Source: Rhodoferax sp. AJA081-3
Lineage (GTDB): Bacteria; Pseudomonadota; Gammaproteobacteria; Burkholderiales; Burkholderiaceae_C
Length of the DNA stretch: 64,000 bases
NCBI RefSeq assembly: GCF_017798165.1
Contig: NZ_CP059068.1
Span: forward strand, 3,100,001-3,164,000
Direction of reading: 5' to 3'
The notes beneath the pieces were generated by a model, which saw only the letters and a program-made list of their open reading frames with translations, did not search any database and was not told where the DNA came from. Shown one piece after another: positions 3,927-40,932 of this stretch. Position 1 is the stretch's first letter. Every line of letters begins with the position of its first letter. Both the position numbers and the translations under genes were made by a program.

Positions 3927-3997
3927 GGTGCAACGTTTGGGACTGGCCGGTCACAAAAGTGCATCCTATTCACTCTTGGCCCAACCCGTTTCTAAAA

Positions 3998-4023
3998 CGT
4001 TGCACTTCGTACTTGAATCCGCC
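3998..4023 (-). repeat. IS30 element right inverted repeat
   Basis: Partner of 2930-2955, with two mismatches. It lies on the promoter side of the transposase gene. The next bases, TGC at 4024-4026, repeat the three bases before the left end. Confidence 0.85.
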
Positions 4024-4128
4024 TGCACCAAGGCATTGGGCCGGGGCTGGCCATCCATATTTCCTCCACATTTGACGGCGACAGTTCCTTCCCAGCGATG
4101 CCACGGTGGCATCCACCAGGAGACTGCC

Positions 4129-5430: not shown

Positions 5431-5451
5431 AACACCGTCGAGAAACCAGAA

Positions 5452-5548
5452 GCCGGGGCGGTAGAGCGTTCTGCGCAGGTAAAGGAGGAGCCCGCAGGCG
5501 CAAGCCGGAGGGCGGGGGACACGGAGCAGAACGCTCTACCGCCCCGGC
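5452..5548 (+). repeat. Family B long-arm palindrome, copy B1
   Basis: Perfect 23-bp inverted arms (5452-5474 and 5526-5548) enclose the conserved core GCAGGTAAAGGAGGAGCCC ... GGGGGACACGGAGC. The arms match each other but not those of other copies. It fills the gap between the peroxidase gene and the sensor kinase gene. Confidence 0.8.
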
Positions 5549-5572
5549 GCCTAGCCTGGCTAAGATGTGTTG

Positions 5573-7063
5573 ATGCGCACGCCACGCCGACTTCCCATAG
5601 CCCTGCAACTGTCGCTGCTGATCGCGTCAGCTGTCGTGATAGCAGTGCTGGTGGTGGGGGCCCTTAGCTTTCTAAACCTGCGCAGCGGCTTCAAAGACTA
5701 TTTACAAGTGCGCGACGAAGAGCAGCTGATGCGTTTTGTGGCCATGGTGGAGCGCCGCGCCGCCACCGACACCGAACTGCAGTGGCTGCGCCAGGACCCC
5801 GACCCCATGCGGGCGTTGATGGACGAATTCGCCGGCCGCGCCCCACGCGGCCAACGCCCACCCCCACCGCAACGGGGTTACGACCGCCCACCACCACCCC
5901 GCCCCGATGACGCATCGCCGCGCACACCCCGCGGCCAAGGCAGCCTGGGCGAACGCATGCTGCTGCGCGACGCCCAAGGCCAGCGCCTGGCCGGCCGTCC
6001 ACAACCACCTGGCGTGCAACGCACCACACGCGCCATCAAGGTGAATGGTGTGGAGATCGCGTTTGTGGACTTGCTACCCGAGCCAGAACCCGAAGGTGTG
6101 GACGCCCGCTTCCTGCAGCGCCAGACCAGCCGCCTGGTCTGGGCCGCGCTGGGCACCATACTCGCCGCCGTGCTGGCAGCGTGGTGGATGGCGGGCCGCT
6201 GGAGCCGCCCGCTCTTGGCCCTGCAAAGCGCCAGCCGCGAGATCGCCCGCGGCCGCCGACCCGAGCCCCTGCAGCCCACCGGTGCACGCGAGATTGCGCA
6301 GCTGATGGAAGACGTCAACACCATGACCGCCGAGCTGGCGCGGCTGGAGACCGCACGCCGCGTCTGGATCGCACAGATCTCGCACGAGCTGCGCACCCCT
6401 TTGTCGGTGCTGCGCGGCGAGATGGAAGCGATTGAAGATGGCGCCCGCCAGCCCACGCCGCAGGTGATGGCCAGCCTGCGCGATGAGGTGCTGCAGCTCA
6501 CACGCCTGGTCGATGACCTGCACACGCTGTCGGTGGCCGATGTGGATGGCCTGCGCTGCGACTTCACTGCGGGTGATGCCCATGCCAACCTGTGGCGCGT
6601 GGCCCAGCGTTTTGAAGCGCAGGCCCAACAACGCGGCCTGTCACTTTTGTTGCCTGCACAGGCCTTCACGCCCATGAACGTGAACTGGGACTTTGGCCGC
6701 ATCGAACAACTGCTGGCCAACCTGCTGACCAATAGCATGCGCTACACCGACGCACCCGGCAGCATTGCCGTGGACTGGCACAGCGACGGTCGCACCGTGA
6801 CACTCACCGTGGACGACAGCGCGCCCGGCGTCAGCGATACCGATATGCGTGAACTGTTTGAGCCGCTGTTCCGCGGCGACAAGGCGCGCCAGCGCGGTGA
6901 CGGCCAACACGGCAGCGGCCTGGGCTTGGCCATTGCACGCTCCATTGCCCACGCACACCAGGGCACGGTAACAGCCGGCGCGTCGCAGCGCGGTGGTTTG
7001 CAGATGACAGTGCGCCTGCCGGTGAACCCGAGCTCGGTCGCGGCGCAGAAAGGTGCAGCATGA
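5573..7063 (+). CDS. Two-component sensor histidine kinase, BaeS-like
   Basis: 496 aa inner-membrane sensor. A first membrane segment covers about residues 10-35. The periplasmic region contains a Pro/Arg-rich stretch (about 85-125). A second membrane segment (LVWAALGTILAAVLAAWWMA) lies near 190-210 and is followed by a HAMP linker. The H box ISHELRTPLSVLRGEME near residue 273 holds the phospho-accepting His. ATP-binding boxes follow: LLANLLTNSMRYT (N box), VDDSAPGVSD (D/G1 box) and GSGLGLAIARSIAHAH (G2). HELRTPLSVLRGE and the arrangement resemble BaeS. The ATG at 5573 is preferred over in-frame GTG/TTG codons at 5567/5570. It overlaps the regulator gene by 4 bases (ATGA), so the two are translationally coupled. 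The stimulus is unknown. Confidence 0.9.
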   Translation: MRTPRRLPIALQLSLLIASAVVIAVLVVGALSFLNLRSGFKDYLQVRDEEQLMRFVAMVERRAATDTELQWLRQDPDPMRALMDEFAGRAPRGQRPPPPQRGYDRPPPPRPDDASPRTPRGQGSLGERMLLRDAQGQRLAGRPQPPGVQRTTRAIKVNGVEIAFVDLLPEPEPEGVDARFLQRQTSRLVWAALGTILAAVLAAWWMAGRWSRPLLALQSASREIARGRRPEPLQPTGAREIAQLMEDVNTMTAELARLETARRVWIAQISHELRTPLSVLRGEMEAIEDGARQPTPQVMASLRDEVLQLTRLVDDLHTLSVADVDGLRCDFTAGDAHANLWRVAQRFEAQAQQRGLSLLLPAQAFTPMNVNWDFGRIEQLLANLLTNSMRYTDAPGSIAVDWHSDGRTVTLTVDDSAPGVSDTDMRELFEPLFRGDKARQRGDGQHGSGLGLAIARSIAHAHQGTVTAGASQRGGLQMTVRLPVNPSSVAAQKGAA

Positions 7064-7794
7064 ACACCAAGGCCACAGCACTCGGAAAGCAGCACATCCT
7101 GGTCGTAGAAGACGACACCAAGATCGCCGACATGTTGACCAACTACCTGCACATGCATGGCTTCGAGACCACGGTCTGCAGCAATGGCCTGGACGCCGTG
7201 CCCCTGGTGCGCGCCATCACCCCCGCGCTGGTGGTGCTGGACCTGATGCTGCCCGGCCAGGACGGCATCGCCGTATGTGAACAGTTGCGCGCCTTCTCCG
7301 CCGTGCCCATTATCATGGTGACGGCCCGTGTGGACGAGATCGACCGCCTGTTGGGGCTGGATACGGGTGCTGATGACTACGTCTGCAAACCCTTCAGCCC
7401 ACGCGAGGTGGTGGCCCGCATCCAAGCACTGCTGCGGCGTGCACAGGGCAGCCTGTCGGCGCAGGCGCACCACGCTGCACCCAACAGCGTTACGGCACCC
7501 GCAGCCGCCGCACTGGTGGCCGACGACACCACACTCAGCATCCGCTGGAACGGGCAACTGCTGCCGCTAACCCCGGTCGAGTTCCGCCTGCTACGCCTGT
7601 TGATGTCACGCCCCAGCCATGTGTTCAGCCGCGCGCGTCTGCTGGACCATGTGCACCACGACCTGCGCGATGTGAGCGACCGCGCCATCGACAGCCACAT
7701 CAAGAACCTGCGCCGCAAGCTAGACGCCGCGGGCGCCGTGGGGCACAGCGTGGCGTCGGTGTATGGGGTGGGGTACCGGTTTGAAGTAGATTAA
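7060..7794 (+). CDS. OmpR-family response regulator, BaeR-like
   Basis: 244 aa. The receiver domain (about 8-122) has the acidic pocket VVEDD, the phospho-acceptor Asp in VVLDLMLPGQDG, the conserved Thr in IIMVTAR and the Lys in YVCKPFSPREVV. The C-terminal winged helix (about 150-240) ends DRAIDSHIKNLRRKLDAAG and SVYGVGYRFEV, typical of OmpR/PhoB regulators. It is the cognate partner of the upstream kinase, whose stop codon overlaps its start. It should bind DNA after phosphorylation and control envelope-stress or efflux genes if the BaeSR analogy holds. No such target genes are adjacent. Confidence 0.92.
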   Translation: MNTKATALGKQHILVVEDDTKIADMLTNYLHMHGFETTVCSNGLDAVPLVRAITPALVVLDLMLPGQDGIAVCEQLRAFSAVPIIMVTARVDEIDRLLGLDTGADDYVCKPFSPREVVARIQALLRRAQGSLSAQAHHAAPNSVTAPAAAALVADDTTLSIRWNGQLLPLTPVEFRLLRLLMSRPSHVFSRARLLDHVHHDLRDVSDRAIDSHIKNLRRKLDAAGAVGHSVASVYGVGYRFEVD

Positions 7795-7842
7795 GCGAGT
7801 GTTCCGCGCGACCTAGAATAAAACCAGAAGGAGGGAATCCGC

Positions 7843-8391
7843 ATGGCAAAAACAAACATCGAGAAGTTGAAAGAGCTGGCTGTTGATACGGCATCGGCCA
7901 CCCAGCGGGGCTTGACCTCCGCCCAAGATGCCGCCAGCAAAGCTGGCGGTGTGGCTCTGGCAGCTGGGCGATCCGTACAACACGCGATCGGCGACGCGGT
8001 GGAGCATGACAACACCAAAGCCGCTGTGGCAAAAGTAAAAGGACTTGCAAGCTCCGCCACGCAGGAAGCGAAGAAACTGACGGGCCGCGTAGTAGACACC
8101 GTCAAGGCGGTCGATGCCAACCACAAGGACGTCGCCGACAAGGTCGAGACAGTGTCCATGGGCCTGGGCATCACCTCTGGCGTGGTGGCAGCGGGAGCGG
8201 CCTTGGCGGCGCCAAGTGGCTTGGGCGCCATCGGTGTTGCCCTGGGCGTAACCAGTGCCCCGCTGATCGTCACCGCGGCCCCCATCATCGGCGCTGCGGC
8301 GACCGCCGCGGGTGTGGTTTCAGGAGGCGCCTACTTTTATTCCAAGTGGAAATCCAAGCAGACGGATGAAGAGGATTCGGAGAAGCCGTAG
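7843..8391 (+). CDS. Uncharacterised protein: Lys/Ala-rich N terminus with glycine-alanine membrane-type C terminus
   Basis: 182 aa, not recognised. Residues 1-100 are rich in Ala, Lys, Asp and Val (for example KVKGLASSATQEAKKLTGRV) and should be helical. Residues about 105-165 are a long Gly/Ala/Val stretch able to form one or two membrane-spanning or glycine-zipper helices. The end is charged (KWKSKQTDEEDSEKP). A strong ribosome-binding site (AGAAGGAGGGA) precedes the ATG. The layout resembles small stress- or desiccation-linked bacterial proteins, but that is only a resemblance. It stands between the response regulator and the CPBP gene in the same direction, and might belong to the regulon. 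Confidence 0.7.
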   Translation: MAKTNIEKLKELAVDTASATQRGLTSAQDAASKAGGVALAAGRSVQHAIGDAVEHDNTKAAVAKVKGLASSATQEAKKLTGRVVDTVKAVDANHKDVADKVETVSMGLGITSGVVAAGAALAAPSGLGAIGVALGVTSAPLIVTAAPIIGAAATAAGVVSGGAYFYSKWKSKQTDEEDSEKP

Positions 8392-8457
8392 GTTTCTCTG
8401 AGGGATGTTGTGCGTGGTGATAATGCGGCACCACAAGAACGAGACAAGCTCCCATCC

Positions 8458-9324
8458 ATGCAAACATCTTCCCCGCAACCCGGCCGTTTTTACCGCGCAG
8501 TTTTGTTCCCCCCGGTCCGCGCGGTTCTGGGCTTCTTCTGGGTCGGTGGCGCCATAGGTATGGGCGCTGGTCTCGCCAGCCTGCTGCCCGAGAACCTGCA
8601 AGCCTGGTCGCCACTGCTGCTGGCACTGGGATCACTGGTGGGCTACTACACCTTTGTTCGTGTCGTCGAGCGGCGCCCGGTTACCGAGCTATGGTCCGTG
8701 GGTTGGCTGCTGGAAGCTGTGGCTGGCATTGCCATCGGTGTGGCCCTGTTCAGTGTTGTCATCGGCATACTTTTTCTGCTGGGCAGTTACACGGCCACGG
8801 TCGCAGCCAGCACCGCCGGCGTGATGCCGGCATTGACTGCCGCCGTCATGGCGGGGGTGACCGAAGAACTGTTGATACGTGCGGTGGCCTTTCGCATTCT
8901 GGAGAGCTGGCTGGGCAGCTGGATCGCCCTGGCCATCTCCGCCATCCTGTTCGGCGTGATGCACCTGCCCAACCCCGAAGCCACCGCGCTGAGCTCGGCA
9001 GCCATCGCGCTGGAGGCCGGCGTGATGCTGGCCGCCGCCTATATGCTCACGCGCCGGGTCTGGCTGGCGATTGGCATCCACATGGCATGGAACTTCACCC
9101 AAAGCGGCATCTTTGGCGCGCCTACATCTGGCGTGCCAAGCCCTGGTTTTCTGGAAGGCCAACTGCACGGGCCGGCATTGTTATCAGGTGGCAGTTTTGG
9201 GCCCGAGGCATCGATTGTGGCGGTCACCGTCTGCCTGGCTTTGGGCCTGTACATGTTGCGCCTGGCGCACGCCAGAGGACACATACTGAAGCCATCGTGG
9301 CGACGGGTTGAAGCTACGGTTTAA
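8458..9324 (+). CDS. CPBP-family intramembrane metalloprotease
   Basis: 288 aa with about seven to eight hydrophobic segments. The Abi/CPBP motifs are present: EELLIRAVAFRILE near residue 140 (motif 1, EExxxR), FGVMHLPNP near 177 (motif 2, FxxxH) and HMAWNF near 217 (motif 3). These supply the Glu and His residues of the intramembrane glutamic/metallo active site related to Rce1. Bacterial members process or protect against peptides, but substrates are mostly unknown. The ATG at 8458 is chosen because the 16 codons upstream do not look like coding sequence. The next gene starts 17 bases downstream. Confidence 0.85.
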   Translation: MQTSSPQPGRFYRAVLFPPVRAVLGFFWVGGAIGMGAGLASLLPENLQAWSPLLLALGSLVGYYTFVRVVERRPVTELWSVGWLLEAVAGIAIGVALFSVVIGILFLLGSYTATVAASTAGVMPALTAAVMAGVTEELLIRAVAFRILESWLGSWIALAISAILFGVMHLPNPEATALSSAAIALEAGVMLAAAYMLTRRVWLAIGIHMAWNFTQSGIFGAPTSGVPSPGFLEGQLHGPALLSGGSFGPEASIVAVTVCLALGLYMLRLAHARGHILKPSWRRVEATV

Positions 9325-9340
9325 GACGTCGCCCTTTGCC

Positions 9341-9925
9341 ATGGACCGCTTGTACAAGCCACATTTTCTGCAGCACGTGAAGCAGGCCATGGCGAATCGG
9401 TTTCCGGATTTCGTCCAACACTCGGTTCCCCGTGACCACCCCCAGCGCGAGCTGTTCAGTGGGGATCTGCTCTACCGCGCGCCTGTGTCCACCTGCGCAA
9501 CCGTGTGGCTGCGTTGGGTGCCCGGCCCCGGTGTGGAGCGCTACTTCAATGTCTACCTGGGTTGGAGCCCAGCGCCCAACCATCTGCCCCAACACCACAC
9601 GCAGGACTTTCGCCTCTACAGCCTCTCGGCACCCAGCCCCGAGTTTGCAGCCGCGTCGCTGGATCTGGAACAGATCGAAGGCAAAGCGGCCATCGGCGGT
9701 ATCACCATTCCGAGTCCGTGGGACCAGATCCTCACGGTAAAGGCAGCAGCACCCAGGCGCGAACAACAGGCCATTCAGAACAAGGCGTTTGCCGAAGCCC
9801 AGACCCTGAGTGATGCAGACCGCGCGAGTGCGGTGGCGACCACCATCGACGACGTTTGCAAGCGGGTGCAGGCGCAACTACCGGCGTTTACGGACCACCT
9901 GCGCGCCATAAGACATGGCGCATAA
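9341..9925 (+). CDS. Uncharacterised soluble protein
   Basis: 194 aa, not recognised. No signal peptide or membrane segment is visible. It starts MDRLYKPHFLQHVKQAM and has a central stretch with many aromatic residues (RYFNVYLGWSPAP near 70). The end is helical and basic (DDVCKRVQAQLPAFTDHLRAI). The codon use looks normal for the neighbourhood, so it is probably a real gene. It overlaps the next gene by 11 bases and follows the CPBP gene by 16 bases, suggesting one transcript 8458-10508. Confidence 0.65.
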   Translation: MDRLYKPHFLQHVKQAMANRFPDFVQHSVPRDHPQRELFSGDLLYRAPVSTCATVWLRWVPGPGVERYFNVYLGWSPAPNHLPQHHTQDFRLYSLSAPSPEFAAASLDLEQIEGKAAIGGITIPSPWDQILTVKAAAPRREQQAIQNKAFAEAQTLSDADRASAVATTIDDVCKRVQAQLPAFTDHLRAIRHGA

Positions 9926-10508
9926 ATCACCCTCTCATGCCGAAAGCCGTGATCGCCTGGTTGCACTCGCGCGCGAATCGCAGTGGCTCATGGACGCACT
10001 GGACGCCGTGCGCAGCCTGGGCCTTTCATCATGGTGCATTGGTGCCGGCGCTATCCGCAATCTGGTGTGGGATGCGCTTCACGACCGGGTCGTGCCGTCC
10101 GCGCTGGCGGATATCGATGTGGTGTATTTTGATGCCGACTGCCTTGCGCCGCAGCAAGACGTGGACATTCAAAACAGGCTGGTTGAACGGATGCCCGGGG
10201 TTCCGTGGGAGGTCACAAACCAGGCCGCCGTACACCATTGGTTTGAGGAATACTTTGGGCATGCGGTCCAACCGCTGGGGTCGCTGGAGGAAGCCGTAGC
10301 CTCTTGGCCGGAGTACGCAACGTCTGTTGGCCTCCGATTAGAAGCCGATGACTCCATTACGGTCATTGCGCCACACGGGCTGGAGGACTTGTTTAACTGC
10401 GTCGTGCGGCGCAATCCGGTCCGCGTCAGTGTTGACACCTACCGCCAGCGGGTCGTTCAAAAGCGGTACGCTGCGCGTTGGCCAAAGGTGCAGATTGTGC
10501 CGTGCTGA
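9915..10508 (+). CDS. Nucleotidyltransferase-fold protein (NTP_transf_6 / DUF925 family)
   Basis: 197 aa. The N-terminal region contains WCIGAGAIRNLVWD near residue 42 and ALADIDVVYFD near 66. This gives the G-x-G-(A/S)-I-R-N and DxDVV(Y/F)FD pattern of the DUF925/NTP_transf_6 family, a minimal nucleotidyltransferase fold. Further blocks are WEVTNQAAVHHWF near 98, WPEYATSVGLR near 132 and HGLEDLFNCVVRRNP near 155. The natural substrate of this family is unknown to me. The ATG overlaps the end of the preceding gene. Confidence 0.82.
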   Translation: MAHKSPSHAESRDRLVALARESQWLMDALDAVRSLGLSSWCIGAGAIRNLVWDALHDRVVPSALADIDVVYFDADCLAPQQDVDIQNRLVERMPGVPWEVTNQAAVHHWFEEYFGHAVQPLGSLEEAVASWPEYATSVGLRLEADDSITVIAPHGLEDLFNCVVRRNPVRVSVDTYRQRVVQKRYAARWPKVQIVPC

Positions 10509-10532
10509 AAACTACACGGGCTACGCGTCAGC

Positions 10533-11276
10533 TCACAGCGTAGCAATCTCCGCAATCGCATTCGCCATGTATTCGATCTTGTGCTGCATGTCGGCTTCGG
10601 TGTCGCCGTAGCGTTGGGCGATCTCGGCGAAGCTGTCCTGGATTTCGATGAAGGCGTCGACCATGTCGGGGTCGAAGTGGGTGCCGCGTTCGCTGAAGAT
10701 GATTTGCACTGCCTTGTCGTGCGGCACACCGTCTTTGTAGACCTTGCTGGTGATCAGCGCGTCGTACACATCGGCCAGGGCGATGATGCGGGCCGACACG
10801 GGGATGTCCGTGCCCGCCAGGGCGCGGGGGTAGCCGCTGCCGTCCCACTTTTCCTGGTGACACAAGACAATGTCCTTGACCATGGCCAGCAGGGGCGATG
10901 GGCGGCCCAGGGTTTTCTCGGCCCGCTCGATGGCGGCATGGCCCAGCGTGGTGTGGGTGCGCATGATGCCGATTTCGTCTGCCGTCAACCTGCCGGGCTT
11001 GAGCAGGATGCGGTCTGGCACACCGACCGAACCCATGTCGTACAAGGGCGCACTGCGGTACAGCATGTCAATGAAGGCGGGGGTGAGGACGGCCTCGAAT
11101 GTGGGGTGTTTGCTCAGCGCCTGGGTCAGGGCCAGCACATAGTGCTGCACGCGCAGGATGTGGCTCTCGGAGTCGGCCTCGCGCATTTCGGCCAAGGTTG
11201 CCATGGCAAAAACCAGCACCTGTTGGGCGTGCTGGACCTCGTCGGTCGCAGGCGTTTGCGGGCTTGGGGTGGGCAT
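10533..11276 (-). CDS. HD-GYP-like cyclic-di-GMP phosphodiesterase homologue with altered HD motif
   Basis: 247 aa. The GYP part is intact: HQEKWDGSGYP near residue 142, followed by ISVSARII-type and LADVYDALTS-type blocks (here VSARIIALADVYDALITSKVYKDG). The metal-binding HD motif, normally LHDIGK, reads LYDMGS near residue 85: the His of the HD pair is Tyr and the following Lys is Ser. The upstream His (HILRVQHYV) is present. A phosphodiesterase of this family would hydrolyse c-di-GMP; with this substitution the protein may be weakly active or a binding/regulatory form. A good AAGGAGAT site precedes the ATG at 11276. It follows the methyltransferase gene by 2 bases, in one operon. Confidence 0.85.
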   Translation of the reverse strand: MPTPSPQTPATDEVQHAQQVLVFAMATLAEMREADSESHILRVQHYVLALTQALSKHPTFEAVLTPAFIDMLYRSAPLYDMGSVGVPDRILLKPGRLTADEIGIMRTHTTLGHAAIERAEKTLGRPSPLLAMVKDIVLCHQEKWDGSGYPRALAGTDIPVSARIIALADVYDALITSKVYKDGVPHDKAVQIIFSERGTHFDPDMVDAFIEIQDSFAEIAQRYGDTEADMQHKIEYMANAIAEIATL

Positions 11277-11278
11277 GG

Positions 11279-12043
11279 TCAATCTCCTTGGGGGCCGTTC
11301 AGTGGCGCTTGGTACAACCATACCATTTTGCCACCCGGCTCGCTACAGCGGGCCGTTGGTTTTATCGCTTGCGCTTCAAACTCCAGGCTGACCAGCCACG
11401 CACCGGGGCGCAGTTCGGCCTGTGCTTTGGCCACGGCGCGCGGCATGCTCTCTGGCCGCTGGAACAGGTAAACCATGTCATAAGAAGACCAGTCTGCCGC
11501 CCAAATGTCGGCCCGGCGCACCTGCGCCCAGGGGCAACGCAGCGCACACAGGGCGCGCAGTGGCCAGCTCCACTCCAGGCCAAACAGTTGGGCTTGCGGG
11601 TAGGCGCGGCGCAGGGCTTTCAGACCATGGCCCAGGCCACAACCGGCGTCCAGCACATGGGCGCCGTTGGGCAGTGGGGCGTGCTGGGGCAGGCTGTCCA
11701 GCGCGTGTGCAGGTGTAGGGAATAGCGGCGCATCGCGCCAGGCATTCAGCGGGTAGACCGCCAGCAGCAGTAGCAGCGGGACCAGCCAGGCCCAGGCGGG
11801 CAACACGGCTGCCAAGCCCAGTGACGGAAGGCTTAAAGCCAATGACAGCGGAAAACCCGCAGCGATCAGTACCCGGCGCCACCAGCTGTTGCCCAGCAGG
11901 CTAAGGCCCACGCCCAGCGCGGTGGCGGTGACCAGTGCCCAGTGCTGCGCAATGCCCTGCCCCATCAGCGCCCGGAACAGCAGCCAGGCTGCGGCCCAGG
12001 TCAGTACGGCGGGCAGCGGCCAAGTGCCGAGGGCTTTGCGCAC
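11279..12043 (-). CDS. Membrane-anchored class I SAM-dependent methyltransferase
   Basis: 254 aa. The first about 100 residues contain three to four hydrophobic helices (TWAAAWLLFRALMG, WALVTATALGVGLSLLG, LPSLGLAAVLPAWAWLVPLLLLLAVYP). The second half is a short Rossmann methyltransferase domain, with motif I VLDAGCGLGHGLKAL near residue 129, an acidic LFGLEWS near 155 and a YDMVYLFQRPESM block near 190. It probably methylates a substrate at the membrane surface, but the substrate is unknown. It is next to parB upstream and the HD-GYP gene downstream on the same strand. Confidence 0.75.
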   Translation of the reverse strand: MRKALGTWPLPAVLTWAAAWLLFRALMGQGIAQHWALVTATALGVGLSLLGNSWWRRVLIAAGFPLSLALSLPSLGLAAVLPAWAWLVPLLLLLAVYPLNAWRDAPLFPTPAHALDSLPQHAPLPNGAHVLDAGCGLGHGLKALRRAYPQAQLFGLEWSWPLRALCALRCPWAQVRRADIWAADWSSYDMVYLFQRPESMPRAVAKAQAELRPGAWLVSLEFEAQAIKPTARCSEPGGKMVWLYQAPLNGPQGD

Positions 12044-12064
12044 AGCGTCCCTATGGGATGCAGC

Positions 12065-13045
12065 TTATCGGCTGGTGCCAGGCGACAGGCGTTCGATCAG
12101 TCCGTTCAACTCGTCCAGCGAGCCAAACTGGATGACAACCTCACCCATCTCTTCTACCCGGCCATTGCGCTTGACGCGTTTCTTGACCTGAATCTCGACC
12201 TGCGCCATCAGCAGATCGGAGAGTTCTTCTTCCACCCGTTTGAGGTCGCGCGACTTTTCTTTCTTGGGCTTGGGCGATGCAGTCAGTTCGAATTCAGCAC
12301 CCAACTTTTTGACCAGACCCTCGGCTTCGCGCACCGACATCTTTTTGGCGGCAATCTGGTTGGCAGCGGTGATCTGTGTACCCCGCTCCAGCGACAGCAG
12401 CGCACGGGCATGGCCCATGTCCAGGTCACCGGCCATCAGCATGGTCTGCACGGGTTCGGCCAGATTGAGCAGGCGCAACAGATTGCTGGCGGCGCTGCGC
12501 GAGCGGCCCACGGCCTGGGCGGCGGTTTCGTGTGTCAGGCCAAATTCCCGGATCAGCCGCTGCAGGCCCTGGGCCTCTTCCAGCGGATTCAGGTCTTCGC
12601 GCTGCATGTTTTCGATCAGCGCCATAGCGGCGGTGGCCTGGTCACTCACATCACGCACCAGCACGGGCACGCTGTCCAGCCCTGCCAGCTTGGCCGCGCG
12701 GAAGCGGCGTTCGCCGGCGATGATTTCGTACAGCGGGCGAACAGGCTCGTCACCCACTACATTGCGGTGCAACCGAGCTTGTTCGTCGCTCAAGCGACGA
12801 ACAAGTATCGGTTGCATGATGCCCTGGGCCTTGATGCTTTCGGCCAGCTCGTACAACGCGCCCTCGTCCATGTGGGTGCGGGGCTGGTATTTGCCGGCCA
12901 CCATATCGGTCAGCATCAGTGTGCTGGGTGGGCCGTCGGCTGCGGGGGTTGTGGAAGCGGCGTCCAGCGCCACGGGCTCCTTGACCTTGGGGCCAAGCAA
13001 TGCTTCCAGACCCATGCCCAGGCCCTTGGGTTTTTTCGTGACCAT
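12065..13045 (-). CDS. parB: Chromosome-partitioning protein ParB (with in-frame palindrome insert)
   Basis: 326 aa. ParB binds parS, spreads as a CTP-dependent clamp and recruits SMC and ParA. Seen here: KYQPRTHMDEGALYELAESI near residue 53, the ParB/Srx CTP-binding block YEIIAGERRFRAAKLAG near 109, ENMQREDLNPLEEAQGL near 150, a helix-turn-helix (LTHETAAQAVGRSRSAASNLLRLL near 172) and a C-terminal dimerisation region. Between QPILVRR and YEIIAGERR, where family members usually have only a few residues, this protein has about 21 extra (LSDEQARLHRN...). The DNA for part of them is a large hairpin, annotated separately. The parA gene is separated from it by a small hydrolase gene, which is 4 bases away. 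Confidence 0.95.
   Translation of the reverse strand: MVTKKPKGLGMGLEALLGPKVKEPVALDAASTTPAADGPPSTLMLTDMVAGKYQPRTHMDEGALYELAESIKAQGIMQPILVRRLSDEQARLHRNVVGDEPVRPLYEIIAGERRFRAAKLAGLDSVPVLVRDVSDQATAAMALIENMQREDLNPLEEAQGLQRLIREFGLTHETAAQAVGRSRSAASNLLRLLNLAEPVQTMLMAGDLDMGHARALLSLERGTQITAANQIAAKKMSVREAEGLVKKLGAEFELTASPKPKKEKSRDLKRVEEELSDLLMAQVEIQVKKRVKRNGRVEEMGEVVIQFGSLDELNGLIERLSPGTSR
12769..12815. repeat. In-frame palindrome inside parB
   Basis: Inner arms of 13 bases (12778-12790 and 12793-12805) pair perfectly around a 2-base loop. Outer arms of 8 bases (12769-12776 and 12808-12815) also pair perfectly. It coincides with a stretch of extra residues before the YEIIAGERR block of ParB and keeps the frame open. 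Confidence 0.75.
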
Positions 13046-13049
13046 ATGT

Positions 13050-13634
13050 TTAAACGTTCGCTTTCTTCGTATTCAAAAATGGGGCCAGCAGCGCCCGGCC
13101 CTCGGGCCAGTCGCCCAGGCCGGAGTCGGCGTTGATGTGGCCTTTGTTGCCGTAGTCGACAAAGGTGGAACCCCAGGCGCTGGCAAGCTGCTGCGCGCGT
13201 GCCAATGTGCAGTACGGGTCGTCATGGCTGCCCAAGAGCGTGCTGGCAAACGGCAGGCGCTGCAGGACGATGGGTGACCAGCTTTTGAGCGGGGCGCGGA
13301 ATTCTTCCCGCTCGGCATCACCCGGCGCCACCAGCAGTGCGCCAACCACGCGGTGTGTGTTGCGCGAGTGTTCTGCCCAGGCAGCAGTCAGCAGGCAGCC
13401 CAGGCTGTGGGCCGCCAGCACGACCGGGCCAGGTGGCGCGGCCAACACCGCTTCTTCCAACTGCATCATCCAGTCGCCACGCAGAGGTTGCATCCAGTCG
13501 TGCTGCTGCACACGCTGGTCGCCATACAGCGCTTCCCAGCGGCTTTGCCAGTGGTCGGGGCCCGAGTTTTGCCAGCCGGGCAGTATGAGGACGGTGGTGG
13601 TGGATGCAGTAGTCACGGTGGGTTTGTCAGGCAA
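13050..13634 (-). CDS. Small serine hydrolase, RBBP9/YdeN-type alpha/beta fold
   Basis: 194 aa. VLILPGWQNSGPDHWQ near residue 16 is the opening signature of this family. AHSLGCLLTAAW near 76 is the G-x-S-x-G-like nucleophile elbow (Ser in HSLG). The end has the YGNKGHINADSGLGDWPEG block near 165, which holds the catalytic His, and DDPYC near 139 gives a candidate Asp. The catalytic triad therefore looks complete; the substrate is unknown. No ATG precedes the first conserved block: the start is a TTG at 13634, directly after repeat A3, or a GTG at 13616. It lies between parA and parB on the same strand. Confidence 0.82.
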   Translation of the reverse strand: MPDKPTVTTASTTTVLILPGWQNSGPDHWQSRWEALYGDQRVQQHDWMQPLRGDWMMQLEEAVLAAPPGPVVLAAHSLGCLLTAAWAEHSRNTHRVVGALLVAPGDAEREEFRAPLKSWSPIVLQRLPFASTLLGSHDDPYCTLARAQQLASAWGSTFVDYGNKGHINADSGLGDWPEGRALLAPFLNTKKANV

Positions 13635-13635
13635 T

Positions 13636-13694
13636 TGCTATGATATTGAGAGCAATAGAGTGAGTATTTACGGGGGCTAGGGGCTTGTTTTGCT
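13636..13694 (-). repeat. Family A element, copy A3
   Basis: Minus-strand reading has CTAGCCCCCGT and the terminal ATCATAGCA. It fills most of the gap between parA and the hydrolase gene and ends one base before the likely TTG start codon of that gene. Confidence 0.72.
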
Positions 13695-13718
13695 TATAAC
13701 ATCTTGGCTGGACGCCCT

Positions 13719-14504
13719 TTACATCGCCGCAATACGTGCCACCATTTCCTGCGCAAACGCCACAAAAGCCTGCGCGCCCTTGGACGACGGGTCAAACACC
13801 ACACCCGGCACACCATAACTGGGCGCCTCGGCCAGGCGCACATTGCGCGGAATGACGGAGTCAAACACCTTGTCGCCAAAGTGGGCCTTGAGTTGTTCAC
13901 TCACCTGCATCTGCAAGGTGATGCGCGGGTCGAACATGACACGCAGCAGGCCGATGATCTGCAGGTCGTCGTTGAGGTTGGCCTTGACCTGCTTGATGGT
14001 GTTGACCAGGTCGGTCAGGCCTTCCAGCGCAAAGTATTCACACTGCATGGGCACGATGACGCCATGGGCGCAGCACAGGCCGTTGAGCGTCAGCATGCTC
14101 AGGGACGGCGGGCAGTCGATCAGCACAAAGTCGTATTCGGCATCCACGGCCTCGATGGCCTGCTTCAGGCGTTTCTCGCGCCGCTCCACTTCGACCAATT
14201 CCACCTCGGCACCGGCCAGCTCGCGGTTCGCACCCAGGATGTCGTAGCTGCAACCACCCTCTTTGAGCTTGTCACTCTGGGCGCGGGCCTCGGCGATGGT
14301 GGCAGATTCGAGCAACACGTCGTAGACGGTGAGCTCCAGCTTGCGCTTGTCCACGCCCGAGCCCATGGTGGCATTGCCCTGCGGGTCCAGGTCGATCATC
14401 AACACCCGCTGACCGACCTTGGCCAGGCCGGCTGCCAGGTTAACGGTGGTGGTGGTTTTGCCGACGCCGCCTTTTTGGTTGGCTACACAGAAGATCTTGG
14501 CCAT
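13719..14504 (-). CDS. parA: Chromosome-partitioning ATPase ParA
   Basis: 261 aa. The start MAKIFCVANQKGGVGKTTTTVNL shows the deviant Walker A motif (KGGVGKTT) with the signature Lys residues. LMIDLDPQGNATMGSG gives the Walker A' region near 40. FVLIDCPPSLSMLTLNGL near 117 is Walker B and the switch, and MFDPRITLQMQV lies near 190. ParA binds DNA in its ATP form and drives origin segregation with ParB. The ATG at 14504 is chosen because the family begins at this point; it lies one base from the end of the LysE gene. Three parS sites lie 1.1-3.6 kb upstream. Confidence 0.96.
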   Translation of the reverse strand: MAKIFCVANQKGGVGKTTTTVNLAAGLAKVGQRVLMIDLDPQGNATMGSGVDKRKLELTVYDVLLESATIAEARAQSDKLKEGGCSYDILGANRELAGAEVELVEVERREKRLKQAIEAVDAEYDFVLIDCPPSLSMLTLNGLCCAHGVIVPMQCEYFALEGLTDLVNTIKQVKANLNDDLQIIGLLRVMFDPRITLQMQVSEQLKAHFGDKVFDSVIPRNVRLAEAPSYGVPGVVFDPSSKGAQAFVAFAQEMVARIAAM

Positions 14505-14505
14505 A

Positions 14506-15120
14506 CTATTTGGACACCGCCAGCTTGATGCCAAAACCGATCAGGAACAGCCCGGCAATTTTCTCCAGCACTTGGGAGATGACGGGGTTGGCGCGAATAC
14601 GCTCTGCCAGATAGTGCGTCAACAGCACCGAGATAAGGCCGTACACAAACGTGATGGCGGCGATGGTGCCAGCCATAAAGCCATAGGTCAGCAATCCGCG
14701 TTGGCTGACCGGGTCCACAAACAGGGGGAAGAAGGCCATATAGAACAGGATGGCCTTTGGGTTGAACAGCGTGATCATCAGTGCCTGGCGGAAGTAGTGA
14801 CCAGCCGTGATATTGAGCACCGGCGCCGCGCCGGGTTTGGCCAGCAGCATCTTGGCACCCAGCCAGGCCAGGTAGGCAGCACCAATCCACTGCACCGCGT
14901 GGAAGGCATCCGGGTAAGCCGCCAGCAGCGCCGCCACCCCAGCCACGGCCGACCACATCAGTACTTGGTCTCCCGCAATCACCCCCATGGTGGCCGCCAG
15001 CCCGCCGCGGATACGACCTTTGCTGGTGGACGTGATCAGCGCCAGATTTCCGGGGCCGGGGATCAGCAGGAAGACGATGATGGTGACAACAAAAGTGCCG
15101 TAGTCGGTGACGCCAAGCAT
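14506..15120 (-). CDS. LysE/RhtB-family amino-acid exporter
   Basis: 204 aa with about six membrane segments. The signature IPGPGNLALITSTSKGRIRGGLAA near residue 20 matches the LysE family G-P-x-P-x-N pattern. FNPKAILFYMAFFPLFVDP near 115 is the second family block. It should export an amino acid or homoserine-type compound. It sits between rsmG and parA, on the same strand, with parA starting one base after its stop. A cargo-export gene inside the partition block is unrelated in function and probably shares only transcription. Confidence 0.88.
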   Translation of the reverse strand: MLGVTDYGTFVVTIIVFLLIPGPGNLALITSTSKGRIRGGLAATMGVIAGDQVLMWSAVAGVAALLAAYPDAFHAVQWIGAAYLAWLGAKMLLAKPGAAPVLNITAGHYFRQALMITLFNPKAILFYMAFFPLFVDPVSQRGLLTYGFMAGTIAAITFVYGLISVLLTHYLAERIRANPVISQVLEKIAGLFLIGFGIKLAVSK

Positions 15121-15204
15121 GGTGGTGTTCTTTCTGGGGAAAGGGCGAGTTTACATCCCGCATTCCTGTTCACTCGCGTTTTGGACTTTGGTCTTCGCAC
15201 GCAT

Positions 15205-15293
15205 CAGGCATGGGGTACGCGTTTTGCTCCGTGTCCCCCGCCCGCTGCGCGGGCTCCTCCTTTTACCTACGCAAAACGCATACCCCACGCCTG
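15205..15293 (-). repeat. Family B long-arm palindrome, copy B2
   Basis: Arms of about 23 bp (15205-15227 and 15271-15293) pair with only two or three mismatches around the conserved core, here in reverse orientation (GTGTCCCCCG ... CTCCTCCTTTTACCT). With B3 it occupies most of the gene-free stretch 15121-15518 between LysE and rsmG; I see no gene there. Confidence 0.78.
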
Positions 15294-15402
15294 GTGCTGA
15301 GGGTGTGTTCACACATACTCATACTGGTAGGCAGATAAGTAAGGCCTGCATTCGGTCTCAGGGGATTGTCTTCCGGCATATGCGTGCCAGCTCAGTAAGG
15401 CA

Positions 15403-15492
15403 GGATAGGTCGGGTTGCGCGTTCTGCGCAGGTAAAGGAGGAGCCCGGAACGGGCGGGGGACACGGAGCAGAACGCGTGACCCGACCTATCC
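15403..15492 (+). repeat. Family B long-arm palindrome, copy B3
   Basis: Arms begin GGATAGGTCGGGT and end in the inverse ACCCGACCTATCC, with an internal two-base mismatch, around the core GCAGGTAAAGGAGGAGCCC ... GGGGGACACGGAGC. It is in opposite orientation to B2, 109 bases away. Confidence 0.78.
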
Positions 15493-15518
15493 CACCCACC
15501 AAGCTACCCAGCCGACCA

Positions 15519-16202
15519 TCAAGTATCAGCCAAAGCCCGCCGCATCCAAACCATGCACCGCTCAGCATCCAACCCCGGCACCTTCAGTTGTTCCACGTGA
15601 AACACTTCCACCGTCGCCGGCAACACCGCTATCTCATCCCCCGGGTGCTTACCCTTCATCGCCATCCAGATTCCCCGCTCCGCCAACGCCCCACCCGACC
15701 AGTTGGTGAAATCAACCAGGGATGCAAAGGCCCGCGAACTGACCACGTCGTACGGCTCGGTCAACGACTCCACCCGCGCATGCAGGCCCCGCAGATTGGG
15801 CAGCTTCAGCGTTACCGCCACCTGCTGGATAAACGCAGCCTTCTTGGCCACCGTATCCACACAGTGCACCGTGATGTCGGGCCGGCAAATGGCAATCACA
15901 ATGCCGGGCAGCCCCGCGCCAGACCCCACATCCAGCAGCCGGATGGGTGCATCCGGTGTTGCGGCACGCAGGGATTGCAGTTGCCGGTCCAGTGGGGCCA
16001 GCGCCGCCAGACTGTCCAGCAGGTGGTGGGTCAGCATCTCGGCTGGGTCGCGCACGGCGGTCAGGTTGTAGACCTTGGTCCACTTCTGGATCAGCTCCAG
16101 GTAGGCCAACAAGGCGGTGATCTGGGTGGCGTCCAGCGTCAGGCCCAGCGCGGGTAGCGCCTGTTCCAGCACCTGGCGGTGGTTGGCAGGTGCTGTAGTC
16201 AT
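15519..16202 (-). CDS. rsmG: 16S rRNA (guanine-527 N7) methyltransferase RsmG (GidB)
   Basis: 227 aa. RsmG methylates G527 of 16S rRNA using SAM. WTKVYNLTAVRDPAEMLTHHLLDSL near residue 45 is the RsmG signature. RLLDVGSGAGLPGIVIAI near 83 is SAM motif I. VVSSRAFASLVDFTNW near 160 and MKGKHPGDEI near 185 complete the family pattern. The ATG at 16202 begins MTTAPANHR; a 15-codon longer frame is unlikely. The last part of the gene contains a parS site encoding FHVEQ. As usual it lies between mnmG and parA, though two unrelated small genes separate it from mnmG. Confidence 0.95.
   Translation of the reverse strand: MTTAPANHRQVLEQALPALGLTLDATQITALLAYLELIQKWTKVYNLTAVRDPAEMLTHHLLDSLAALAPLDRQLQSLRAATPDAPIRLLDVGSGAGLPGIVIAICRPDITVHCVDTVAKKAAFIQQVAVTLKLPNLRGLHARVESLTEPYDVVSSRAFASLVDFTNWSGGALAERGIWMAMKGKHPGDEIAVLPATVEVFHVEQLKVPGLDAERCMVWMRRALADT
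15589..15604. promoter_or_regulatory. parS site 1 (inside rsmG)
   Basis: TGTTCCACGTGAAACA, one mismatch from the palindromic ParB target TGTTTCACGTGAAACA. It is embedded in the rsmG coding sequence. Confidence 0.9.
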
Positions 16203-16206
16203 AGTG

Positions 16207-16806
16207 TTAGCGGCAGGCAATGGAAACCTCGTTTTGTTGGGCAGCAAAGGCCATTTTTTCTTTATCGGTCATACGGCCCAGGCGGGCACGGTCAGCGTCC
16301 AGAGTCTGGCGTAGCTTCTGGCAAGACGCTGCGTCCAGCGGCGCATTTTTGCCACTGGCCCCGCGGGCGTTTTCCTTGCGGGTGGCATCCACCACCTGGT
16401 CGGCACACTTACCTTCAAATTCACTGACCGCCCGTTTGACCTCGTCCATGGACGTATTGGAATCACTCTGCAACACCCGCGACGCGCGGTCGCCCAGGGT
16501 GCGGCATTCGGGCGTCAGGTTTTGGTGCACCCGGTCCCGCGCGGCCTTTTGCCGCACGGCTTCGACCGATGTGGTCGGCCCACCCGTGGCGGGTGTGTTG
16601 CCAGCCGCTGCGGCCTGTGCACCAGTGCCTGCGCCTTTTATGGCACCGCCGGTTTGGTCGTTGGGGCAGGCATGGTCGCTGAAGACCACCCGGCCATCGG
16701 CCTGGGTGCATTTGTAGACACCCGCGGCCCCGGCAGCCATGGCCGCGGACGACACCAGCAGAGCGACCAGGGTCATCCGCAGTCGTGGTGGGAAAAGTGG
16801 GTACAT
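16207..16806 (-). CDS. Secreted DUF4124-type protein
   Basis: 199 aa. A signal peptide (MTLVALLVSSAAMAAGAAG within the first 30 residues) is followed by VYKCTQADGRVVFSDHACP, the DUF4124 pattern of a short beta domain with paired cysteines. The rest is Ala/Lys/Asp-rich and probably helical, with further Cys at PECRTLG, GKCADQV, ASCQKL and the C-terminal ACR. It is probably periplasmic; its role is unknown. The ATG at 16806 is used because the only longer start is a TTG at 16818. It lies between rsmG and another small envelope-type gene on the same strand, and the gaps are small enough for one transcript. Confidence 0.75.
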   Translation of the reverse strand: MYPLFPPRLRMTLVALLVSSAAMAAGAAGVYKCTQADGRVVFSDHACPNDQTGGAIKGAGTGAQAAAAGNTPATGGPTTSVEAVRQKAARDRVHQNLTPECRTLGDRASRVLQSDSNTSMDEVKRAVSEFEGKCADQVVDATRKENARGASGKNAPLDAASCQKLRQTLDADRARLGRMTDKEKMAFAAQQNEVSIACR

Positions 16807-16818
16807 CGTAGAAATCAA

Positions 16819-17469
16819 TCAATCCCAGCAGTTGGCCGGTTTACCCGTGGAGTGCACCCAGTAGCGGCCAAAGCCACCAATGCCGGGGCCCATTTTTCCC
16901 TGCAGGGCCCACACATCGCCCCGCGCCTGGTGGTCGTAATGTTCATCGTCCGGGTGGTTGCCACCGTCGCCAAAGGCGGCCATGCGCCAGCCCGAGCCCA
17001 GTTCGCGTTCACACATCACCGAGGCCTGCAGCTCAGATTGCAGGGTTGCACCCATCACCGCCTGGGTGGCTCCCAGCTCGCCACGACTCCAGCCACTGCC
17101 GCTCAAGCCACCGGGTCGGGGCAGATCACCCTTGCGGATACACAAGACCGGCAGCACGATGCGGCAGCTGGTGTCGCCCACATTGGGGTTGCAGGCGCCT
17201 TTGTAGGCGCGGTCCAGCGTGGAGTCACCTGCGTCGCAGACCATATTGGCCACATCTTTGGGATCTTTGTCTTCCAGTGGCTGCAGGCCAAAGGTCAGAC
17301 CGTAACCAATGGGTTTGTTGCTGGGTGGCTCGGGGGGCGGGGTCAATGGCGCGCCCGACGGGGCGACCTTGATGGCAGGCGGCGGCTTGGGGCCAGAGCA
17401 TTTGCTGAACATCAGCGGAATCACCAGGATGCCCACCAGCACCCCCACCAAAACGACTGCTCGCTGCAT
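16819..17469 (-). CDS. Uncharacterised membrane-anchored, Pro-rich periplasmic protein
   Basis: 216 aa, not recognised. One N-terminal hydrophobic segment (VVLVGVLVGILVIPLMF, residues 5-21) precedes a Cys and a Pro-rich linker (PKPPPAIKVAPSGAPLTPPPEPP), suggesting an anchor with a periplasmic domain. The globular part has six Cys and many Gly/Trp (GFGRYWVHSTGKPANCWD at the end), so disulfides are likely. It ends 13 bases before the start of the DUF4124 gene and follows mnmG on the same strand. Confidence 0.65.
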   Translation of the reverse strand: MQRAVVLVGVLVGILVIPLMFSKCSGPKPPPAIKVAPSGAPLTPPPEPPSNKPIGYGLTFGLQPLEDKDPKDVANMVCDAGDSTLDRAYKGACNPNVGDTSCRIVLPVLCIRKGDLPRPGGLSGSGWSRGELGATQAVMGATLQSELQASVMCERELGSGWRMAAFGDGGNHPDDEHYDHQARGDVWALQGKMGPGIGGFGRYWVHSTGKPANCWD

Positions 17470-17509
17470 GCGCTGCCCTCCCCGGCTGCTCAGATAAAAA
17501 GGGCTAAGT

Positions 17510-19546
17510 TTACGCGGCCACTTTTTCGGCGAAGCCGCGGAAGTTGCCCTTCTTCAAATGGATCAGCAACAGAGAAATGGTCGCCGGCGTGATGCCCGAC
17601 ATGCGCGATGCCTGGCCCAGGGTTTCGGGGCGCTGCTTGTTCAGACGCTGGCGGGCTTCGATGCTCAGCGCCGTCACCTGCATATAGTCCAGCTCGGCGG
17701 GCAGGCGCAGGTTCTCGTAGTGGGCGGCGCGCTCCACCTCGTCGTTCTGGCGGTCGATGTAGCCGGAGTACTTGGCGGCAATCTCCACCTGCTCGATGAC
17801 GGCGGCTACGAATACATCCTGGGCCAAGACCGCCGCGGCAGCCTCAGAACCTTCCGCTGTTTCACGTGGAACATCTGGGGCAACCGTCGGCAGATCCCGG
17901 TTCGCATAACGCCCTTCGTCCAGCGACATCAGCGCCGCGTAGCCGATGTTCGGGCGCCGCAACAAGTCTGCCAGGTTGTATTCATGCTCAATGGATTTAC
18001 CCAGCACCCGCTCAGATTCGCTGGCCGCCAAATTCTTGGGGCTGACCCAGATGCTGCGCAGACGTTCTGTTTCACGTGAAACAGCATCGCGCTTGCGGCA
18101 GAAGGCATCCCAGCGTGCGTCGTCCACCAGACCCAGCTTGCGGCCGGTCTCAGTCAGGCGGGCGTCGGCATTGTCCTCGCGCAGCTGCAGGCGGAACTCG
18201 GCGCGGCTGGTAAACATGCGGTAAGGCTCGGTCACGCCCTTGGTGATCAGGTCGTCGACCAGCACACCCAGGTAGGCCTCGTTACGGCCGGGCACCCAGG
18301 TGTCCTGGCCCCACGCCGCAGACTGGGCAGCTGGGGCACCGGCTTGCAGCGCGGCATTGACGCCAGCGAACAATCCTTGCGCCGCCGCCTCTTCATACCC
18401 GGTCGTGCCGTTGATTTGACCGGCAAAAAACAGGCCGTTGATCTGGCGCGTCTCAAAGCTGTTCTTCAGCGAGCGCGGGTCAAAGTAGTCGTATTCAATC
18501 GCGTAGCCGGGCCGCAGGATGTGCACGTTCTCCAAGCCGGCCATGCTGCGCACCAGGTCGTACTGCACGTCAAACGGCAGGCTGGTGCTGATGCCGTTGG
18601 GGTAGTACTCGTTGGTCGTCAGGCCTTCGGGCTCCAGGAAAATCTGGTGGCTGTCTTTGTCGGCAAAGCGGTTGATTTTGTCTTCCACACTCGGGCAGTA
18701 GCGCGGGCCCACGCCTTCGATCTTGCCGGTGAACATGGGGCTGCGGTCAAAGCCGCTGCGGATGATGTCGTGCGTGCGCTCGTTGGTGTGGGTGATCCAG
18801 CACGGCATTTGTTGCGGGTGCATGTCCAGCCGGCCCATGAAGCTGAAGACCGGCATCACCGGGCTCATGCCACCTGCCACGCCGTCGCCGGGTTGTTCGA
18901 TGCACTTGCTGAAGTCGATCGTGCGGCCATCCAGCCGTGGTGGTGTGCCGGTTTTCAGGCGTCCTTGGGGCAGCTTCAATTCCTTCAGCCGTGCAGACAA
19001 GGACACGGCAGGCGGGTCCCCTGCCCGGCCGGCGGCGTAGTTGTTCAGCCCCACGTGGATCTTGCCGTCCAGGAACGTGCCCGCTGTCAGCACTACAGTC
19101 TTGCTGCGGAACTGGATACCCACCTGGGTCACCGCGCCCACCACGCGGTCGCCTTCAATCATCAGGTCGTCCACCGCCTGCTGGAACAGCCACAGGTTGG
19201 GCTGGTTCTCCAGCATGCGGCGAATGGCCGCCTTGTACAGCACCCGATCAGCTTGGGCACGGGTGGCACGCACGGCCGGGCCTTTGCTGGAATTGAGAAT
19301 GCGGAACTGGATGCCGCCCTCATCTGTAGCCAGCGCCATTGCGCCGCCCAGCGCGTCCACTTCCTTGACCAGATGGCCCTTGCCAATGCCACCGATGGAC
19401 GGGTTGCAGCTCATCTGCCCCAGCGTTTCGATGTTGTGGCTGAGCAGCAGCGTCTTGCTGCCCATGCGGGCAGCCGCGAGTGCAGCCTCGGTTCCGGCAT
19501 GGCCGCCGCCAACGACGATGACGTCGAAATCTTGTGGGTAAAGCAT
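17510..19546 (-). CDS. mnmG: tRNA uridine-5-carboxymethylaminomethyl modification enzyme MnmG (GidA)
   Basis: 678 aa. With MnmE it forms the complex that makes (c)mnm5U34 in certain tRNAs. The FAD site [21 protein letters not shown] is at residues about 9-30. [22 protein letters not shown] near 47 and [14 protein letters not shown] near 350 are the two PROSITE-type GidA signatures. [21 protein letters not shown] near 375 is the second FAD block, and the C-terminal helical domain binds MnmE and tRNA. Two parS sites lie within the gene (17858 and 18068) and encode VPRET and VSRET. mnmE is present at 47.4 kb, so both partners are in the window. Confidence 0.97.
17858..17873. promoter_or_regulatory. 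parS site 2 (inside mnmG)
   Basis: TGTTTCACGTGGAACA, one mismatch from the palindromic ParB target TGTTTCACGTGAAACA, within mnmG codons. Confidence 0.9.
18068..18083. promoter_or_regulatory. parS site 3 (inside mnmG)
   Basis: TGTTTCACGTGAAACA, a perfect parS palindrome, 195 bases from site 2. Confidence 0.95.
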
Positions 19547-19669
19547 GGTGTTCAGTGTGTGGGCGCAAGGCTAGTTGGCGTGCGCCCGGTGTGGGTAGCC
19601 CTCGATTTTACCGGTTGCACGGTTTTTTGGCACGTGGAGAGAATTCCACCTGACTGGGCTGGCTGGGTG

Positions 19670-19762
19670 GATCTGTTGGGCTGCACGTTTTGCTGCGTGT
19701 CCCCCGGCCTTGCAAGCAAGGCCTCCTCCTTTACCTCCGCAAAACGCACAGCCCAACAGATC
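19670..19762 (-). repeat. Family B long-arm palindrome, copy B4
   Basis: Arms of 24 bp (19670-19693 and 19739-19762) pair with two mismatches. The core is in reverse orientation. It lies in the 396-base gene-free stretch 19547-19942 upstream of mnmG; apart from B4 and B5 I see nothing else there. Confidence 0.8.
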
Positions 19763-19799
19763 TTGCGTTGCGGTGTTGGCAGAGCACAAACAAACTCCA

Positions 19800-19892
19800 G
19801 CGTCAGGCAAGGCGCGCGTGTTTTGCGCAGGTAAAAGGAGGAGGCCGAAGGCCGGGGGACACGGAGCAAAACACGCGCGCCTTGCCTGACGC
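19800..19892 (+). repeat. Family B long-arm palindrome, copy B5
   Basis: Perfect 27-bp arms (19800-19826 and 19866-19892) enclose GCAGGTAAAAGGAGGAGGCC ... GGGGGACACGGAGC. It faces B4 across 37 bases, as B3 faces B2. Confidence 0.85.
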
Positions 19893-19942
19893 GGGCGAGA
19901 GAACTAGACCCCACACACACCTGAAATGGTGACAATATCCCT

Positions 19943-40905: not shown

Positions 40906-40932
40906 GCAGCTACCCGGAGAATCTCTCCAATC

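Follow-up and report, generated by a model that had tools for sequence, protein, structure and literature searches.

The 64,000-nucleotide stretch of Rhodoferax sp. AJA081-3 analysed here (contig NZ_CP059068.1, positions 3,100,001 to 3,164,000 of the forward strand; hereafter the window) carries five copies, B1 to B5, of a hairpin repeat family of about 95 bases per copy, which is dispersed through this genome and those of relatives. Each copy has a conserved, asymmetric core enclosed by long inverted arms. The arms belong to the element: wherever the core is missing at one of the three sites that were compared, its arms are missing too, and where it is present they are as well. Moreover, the two arms change together at fixed sites, and G.T oppositions are tolerated on the core-bearing strand while A.C oppositions are not, regardless of the direction of the neighbouring genes. 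On balance, we lean towards regarding the copies as members of a structured repeat that is dispersed in Burkholderiales and their relatives, is non-coding and non-autonomous, and resembles REP/REPIN elements in its working.

Architecture of the repeat and its arms

Read on the core-bearing (plus) strand, a copy consists of a left arm ending in TT(C/T)TGC, the 5' core GCAGGTAAAGGAGGAG, a small GC-rich inner hairpin of variable sequence, the 3' core CGGGGGACACGGA, and a right arm beginning with GCA(G/A)AA. Copies are 91-107 nt long when 28 arm bases are counted per side. Folded as RNA, one of them, L016, has a predicted energy of -69.4 kcal/mol (z -9.8); folded as DNA, its value is -40.8 (z -9.6).

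An initial annotation of the window had described the five copies and proposed that others be collected genome-wide. This was done in the AJA081-3 genome (5.17 Mb), where at least 76 distinct places were found at E up to 1e-4 among the matches listed, and 61 copies were parsed in full. Parsing as a full copy required both core halves; outside the 61 stand L001, which is a half copy, L073 and L074, which have a different 3' loop, and L075. In L073 and L074 (551.0 and 1156.2 kb) the 5' core is normal, and the 3' loop is also longer and ends in GGGGAGC.

The arms of the 61 copies are 23-37 bp long; in B1 (23 bp) and B5 (27 bp) the arms are perfect, as had been noted. Over 17 positions, with G.T allowed, 97% of the arm positions pair within copies compared with 60% between copies. 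Over the inner 20 pairs, 17 of the 61 copies are perfect, and 58 have at least 19 positions paired with G.T allowed. The arms of a copy do match each other, then, but the accompanying statement that arms differ completely between copies goes too far. The inner TT(C/T)TGC is nearly constant, and 21 of the 61 copies carry (C/T)TGGG / CCCA(G/A) in both arms, exactly 21 nt from the core, within variants of GGAG(C/T)CTGGGCGGCAGAGCG. Head-to-head pairs join two further arm types, P (like CAGGCATGGGGTGGG) and Q (like GATCAGTTGGGCTGTG), which were assigned by eye. In view of the motif common to 21 copies and of the P and Q types in pairs, we read the arms as features that the copies inherited with the family and that have since diverged. 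Equal motif distances were also considered as a sign of mirrored insertions and deletions and then dropped, being a trivial outcome of complementary arms; we mention only L067 in this respect (478-571; 4.947 Mb of the genome), in which 8 extra nt stand in each arm at mirrored positions, perhaps as a nested element.

Neighbouring copies less than 320 bp apart are all inverted (57/57), with 54 in the '-+' arrangement and 3 in the '+-' arrangement; the AJA081-3 genome alone has 8 and 1, respectively.

Sites lacking the element were compared with occupied ones at three places. At the B1 site, the congener G009 has the upstream stop codon, 12 bases and the next start, with the arms absent by eye, and G032 is similar. 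The hrpA copy sits in frame in the AJA081-3 genome, and hrpA of G007 has neither the element nor, by eye, its arms. At the third site, a contig of a metagenome-assembled genome (L236) carries Q plus P, and AJA081-3 carries Q only, again without P arms on inspection by eye. The comparison of empty sites, which the initial annotation had also suggested, thus found neither arm pre-existing at any of the three, at flank identities of 65-83%. The hrpA gene (named by NCBIfam; L350, 649-3999; 550.5-554.5 kb of the AJA081-3 genome) contains the element twice, in frame both times and once in each direction.

Concerted change of the arms and strand asymmetry of pairing

In an alignment of 57 of the 61 copies (L051, L062, L066 and L067 were left out), the covariation score of the arm pairs is 0.631, compared with 0.167 for shuffles and at most 0.107 for slid partners. 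Changes on both sides occur at 24 of 28 arm pairs and at 4 of 6 inner-hairpin pairs. In the loop, the base before AGG covaries with the base after CACG (C-G 142, T.G 31, T-A 20, G-C 7 and other 14, among the 214 elements fitting the filter), so that the loop holds one more base pair, with G.A and A.G oppositions next to it.

Where orthologous sites share about 84% identity in their flanks, the two arms change in concert and in place. A total of 293 orthologous pairs gave 67 disjoint comparisons, of which 49 or 50 agreed in core variant and differed at no more than half of the positions. Over 49 disjoint comparisons with 980 cells, we counted 103 double changes from one Watson-Crick pair to another, 81 single changes between a Watson-Crick pair and G.T, 11 between a Watson-Crick pair and A.C, 18 single changes to other mismatches, and 32 mixed cases. 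The double changes amount to 10.5% of the cells, compared with about 1% by our estimate for arms that change independently of each other, at rates like those of the flanks; 51 are transition pairs and 52 are transversion pairs, for which no G.T bridge exists. The arms of one copy have thus been kept complementary after insertion, in agreement with the early remark that plain divergence from one ancestor would be insufficient.

In the 6 comparisons with a flank identity of at least 90%, we found 9 single changes and not one Watson-Crick double; without the core-variant filter, 7 comparisons gave 11 single changes and 1 double. At flank identities of 86-90%, 11 comparisons show 22 doubles and 27 singles. 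The mismatch thus seems to come first and the repair of the pair later. The B2/B3 site was examined in 16 congener regions. Eight of them (G022, G009, G020, G007, G026, G001, G015 and G014) have a head-to-head pair whose arms are different yet complementary, two (G003, G013) have a single fused hairpin, one (G032) has a lone Q-like arm, and five (G018, G028, G035, G004, G024) are empty. At the B4/B5 site, the pair is present in G022, G009, G003 and G012.

If the symmetry of DNA governed the pairs, a lone transition would yield G.T and A.C equally often. Over 20 fixed pairs in the 61 AJA081-3 copies, G.T was observed 69 times and A.C 9 times. Over the 18 inner pairs of 304 unique elements, with G.T and A.C scored alike, there were 4844 Watson-Crick pairs, 430 G.T, 34 A.C and 164 other oppositions. 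The G.T:A.C ratio is 70:6 for single copies co-directed with both neighbouring genes and 59:3 for those opposed to both, and 28:0 and 22:4 for members of pairs; gene directions were taken from a codon-usage score trained on the window and not from annotation. In the AJA081-3 genome, 19 copies lie with the neighbouring genes and 16 against them, with 9 between convergent and 4 between divergent genes and 13 unresolved. Among the orthologous comparisons, sense copies (20 comparisons) show 34 changes involving G.T, 4 involving A.C, 10 other singles and 57 Watson-Crick doubles; the corresponding numbers are 36, 4, 3 and 30 for antisense copies (17 comparisons), and 13, 3, 5 and 21 for unclassed copies (13 comparisons). 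Because the G.T excess is found in both gene orientations and no direction is preferred, the constrained molecule is best read as the plus strand itself rather than local mRNA, and we infer that the constrained form is the folded core-bearing strand.

Nature of the element and alternative explanations

In the explanation that we favour, a structured, non-autonomous repeat, the unit would be the whole hairpin, with its arms, asymmetric internal loop and inner hairpin, and many copies are arranged as head-to-head pairs of P and Q. The folded plus strand would most simply act as single-stranded DNA, and the protein recognising it would either spread the element or make use of it; alternatively, the strand could be an RNA made by each copy from its own promoter. 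Arm mismatches would arise first. Selection would compensate them later, with polymerase template switching from one arm to the other as a possible aid. The G.T bias would then be due to selection on the fold, and template switching, as the available part of PMC8794818 presents it, may help to explain the transversion pairs. More tentatively, we suggest a previously undescribed class of structured single-stranded DNA element in Burkholderiales: a hairpin, often in doublets, with a near-invariant asymmetric loop. One strand of it would be recognised by a non-RAYT protein, selection would act on the element in place whatever the local transcription, and compensatory evolution of DNA would thus be recorded in hundreds of arm pairs from different species.

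With hundreds of copies, many of them at matched sites, the family is a natural experiment on the maintenance of pairing in long stems, and its built-in strand test tells selection on a fold apart from DNA processes that are symmetrical. If single-stranded DNA is the recognised form, the family points to a new factor that recognises hairpins in a large bacterial order, and it shows intergenic palindromes to be under a selection that the mRNA of flanking genes does not mediate.

Several observations weigh against the explanation that we favour. No transposition was seen, and the absent sites may be losses, since gain and loss are indistinguishable there. The flanks of the element-free sites (65-79% identical at the B1 site) are too diverged for the ends of the element to be discerned, or a target-site duplication, which is a classical trait of miniature inverted-repeat transposable elements and insertion sequences. 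At the B3 site of G032 (L165, 1486-1850) stands a single Q-like arm, probably a remnant, with neither core nor second arm, and the fused hairpin of G013 at the B2/B3 site has unmatched arms. Some orthologous copies are so different that another copy may have replaced them. Doubles account for 57 of 105 classed changes in sense copies and for 30 of 73 in antisense copies (Fisher p=0.095), which leaves room for some RNA-level effect. A clear replication-strand bias was not seen: with the terminus assumed opposite dnaA, single copies are head-on in 56 cases and co-directional in 43 over three genomes (p=0.23), so that insertion biased to one replication strand is unsupported there, and the AJA081-3 genome alone gives 36 to 22 (p=0.09). 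Finally, a mobilising enzyme was not found: the 30 loci of Y1 transposase genes that were fetched, a subset of all Y1 genes, contain no copy. Five genomes without an element match have a Y1 gene, and no such gene is seen in two others, which have 12 and 37 element matches.

Some of these points bear on other explanations. If the hairpins acted in the mRNA of flanking genes, as terminator, stabiliser or attenuator, selection on the mRNA would keep the arms paired; many copies do lie between co-directed genes, G.T tolerance is typical of RNA helices, and doubles are somewhat commoner in sense copies. We nevertheless consider this unlikely, as the orientation of copies in the AJA081-3 genome is even and the G.T excess is also present where the mRNA carries the other strand. 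Moreover, a T-run directly after the hairpin occurs in 0/297 elements compared with 6/297 at a control position, and an intrinsic terminator was rejected on this ground. Polymerase template switching inside the palindrome (quasipalindrome correction) could by itself produce matched arms, and what is available of PMC8794818 describes for RNA hairpins the same kind of multi-base compensatory stem changes. It would offer a route to the 52 of 103 doubles that are transversion pairs, and to the mirrored 8-nt insertion of L067, which could equally be a nested insertion. However, template switching is a mutational process rather than an element, it gives no reason to favour G.T over A.C (430:34), and the closest comparisons show single changes and, with the core-variant filter, no double. 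That it suffices on its own thus appears doubtful, though worth keeping in mind.

The initial annotation had argued for either insertion of the core into existing hairpins or a mechanism copying one flank in inverted form. The first idea fits inverted arms of differing sequence around one core, and the Q-like half arm of G032 remains a loose end in its favour; REP dimers inside other palindromes are a related case, according to the part of PMC3733652 available. However, the three element-free sites contain no arm sequence and family motifs are common to the arms of different copies, which makes this origin extremely improbable. Inverted copying of a flank is not needed, since motifs of the family recur in the arms, which move together with the element. 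As for true REPs spread by a RAYT-like Y1 transposase of the genome, at least one Y1_Tnp gene is present in 35 of the 37 genomes of the genus, and the doublet architecture and strand specificity resemble those of REPINs (PMC3116915, as far as the available part goes). Yet besides the empty Y1 loci, the presence of the gene and that of the element do not go together, terminal REP tags are few (GTAG at the 5' end in 10/292, control 3; CGTC in 7, control 6), and the stems are 23-37 bp long. We regard this as very unlikely.

REPIN/REP-BIME elements with RAYT (TnpA-REP) are among the known systems nearest to this family. From the portions of PMC3116915 and PMC8266576 available, these are dispersed, mostly intergenic palindromes in head-to-head doublets with a variable spacer and a strand-specific hairpin, and compensatory changes are reported to be common in REPIN stems. 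The present family has these traits too; inverted doublets are over-represented, and the fold is strand-specific in copies lying with and against gene direction. In contrast to REPINs, a single unit already forms a hairpin, built of 23-37 bp arms and an asymmetric internal loop that is conserved, and it is longer than the short palindrome of 20-50 nt that characterises a REP; there is no GTAG tag, no transposase gene was found beside copies, and the arms are far more variable than the core. The betaproteobacterial repeat element (BRE; Hot et al. 2011) is known from Bordetella and Comamonadaceae, including Rhodoferax ferrireducens with 4 copies. It is, in the accessible text of PMC3110155, about 75-91 bp long, GC-rich and mostly intergenic, with partial forms of about 40-60 bp, and its taxa overlap with ours. 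BRE forms tandem arrays of varying number, and that text describes neither arm covariation nor inverted pairs; close neighbours in our family (within 320 bp) are never head-to-tail, and the two might still be one family. GTAG- and CGTC-tagged repeats and Rickettsia palindromic elements share head-to-head dimers and heterodimers as well as insertions inside genes, but differ, as the available part of PMC3733652 describes them, in stems of 5-13 bp, a terminal tag and the lack of a conserved asymmetric core. In the literature searched, judged mostly from listings, we recognised no paper describing this core or architecture. Rfam gave no match at gathering score in the window; five subthreshold matches at E up to 1 fell in two loci, the best to mir-4891 with 34 of the 100 bits needed, and these microRNA and CRISPR-repeat matches were read as general palindrome likeness.

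Distribution and copies in the window

The element is present in 31 of 36 congeners, copy numbers in relatives being lower bounds. Of 300 genomes sampled from the order, at least 14 (AJA081-3 included) have a match with E no higher than 1e-5 under stricter filters, and they belong to 8 of 133 genera. At least 120 contigs matched; among the 80 listed titles are Rhodoferax, Hydrogenophaga, Curvibacter, Aquabacterium, Rhizobacter, Methylibium, Roseateles, Janthinobacterium, an Oxalobacteraceae and a Rhodocyclaceae bacterium, and a few unresolved names, and all those with resolved names are betaproteobacterial. By hand count, close neighbours in 13 other genomes of the order sample comprise 9 '-+' arrangements and no other orientation; some of these genomes (G219) show only singles. 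One IMG/VR contig carries a copy, and the plasmid and phage collections gave no match to one 66-base core query. An autonomous transposon with the hairpins as its ends was rejected on the strength of the genes enclosed by three wide '-...+' arrangements; from their translations we take them to be RecQ (AJA081-3, 3.018-3.020 Mb), MetH (G003, C274) and an acyl-CoA synthetase (G003, C251). At L010, L202 and their orthologues, a copy or pair next to one gene is retained between genera, the gene being presumably propionyl-CoA carboxylase beta-like from its translation.

All five copies reported for the window were recovered. B1 (5447..5553, + strand) stands alone; its neighbours are a di-haem cytochrome c peroxidase-like gene (3925-5430, +) on one side and, on the other, a sensor histidine kinase gene (5567-7063, +). 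Its left arm (5452..5474) is the perfect complement of its right arm (5526..5548), and between them lie the 5' core (5475..5490), the inner hairpin (5491..5512), in a long form also present in copies L021+ and L026+, and the 3' core (5513..5525), all on the + strand. B2 (15200..15298, - strand), of type P, and its Q-type partner B3 (15400..15495, +) are paired head-to-head, with rsmG (15519-16247, -) on one side of them and a LysE-type transporter gene (14506-15120, -) on the other. The second head-to-head pair, B4 (19666..19766, -), of type Q, and its P-type partner B5 (19799..19893, +), is flanked by mnmG (17510-19546, -) and by the gene of an NADPH-dependent FMN reductase (19943-20524, +). 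The B5 orthologue of G003 is immediately followed by a small insertion of two genes (L146, about 2050-2860), which we take to encode a FitA/VapB-type antitoxin and a PIN-domain toxin.

An unfiltered scan of the window returned B1 to B5, their echoes on the opposite strand, and 5 weak matches, which were not counted (best E 0.028, at 12767). Searching for the 16-mer core with at most 3 mismatches gave 4 matches compared with 0.29 expected from shuffles; three lie within B1, B3 and B4 and the fourth (39251) outside any copy, while B2 and B5 escape this search owing to an extra A.

A second dispersed repeat (TGCTA...GATAGC...ACGGGGGCTA..GGC) has three copies in the window (1662-1719, 2872-2929 and 13636-13693), and a stretch resembling it comes after the hairpin-family copy in L243. 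A GGC/GGT-rich repeat at 40744-40923 resembles the end of a glycine-rich protein, and a DnaA domain is encoded at 52210-52692, so that the replication-origin region probably lies inside the window.

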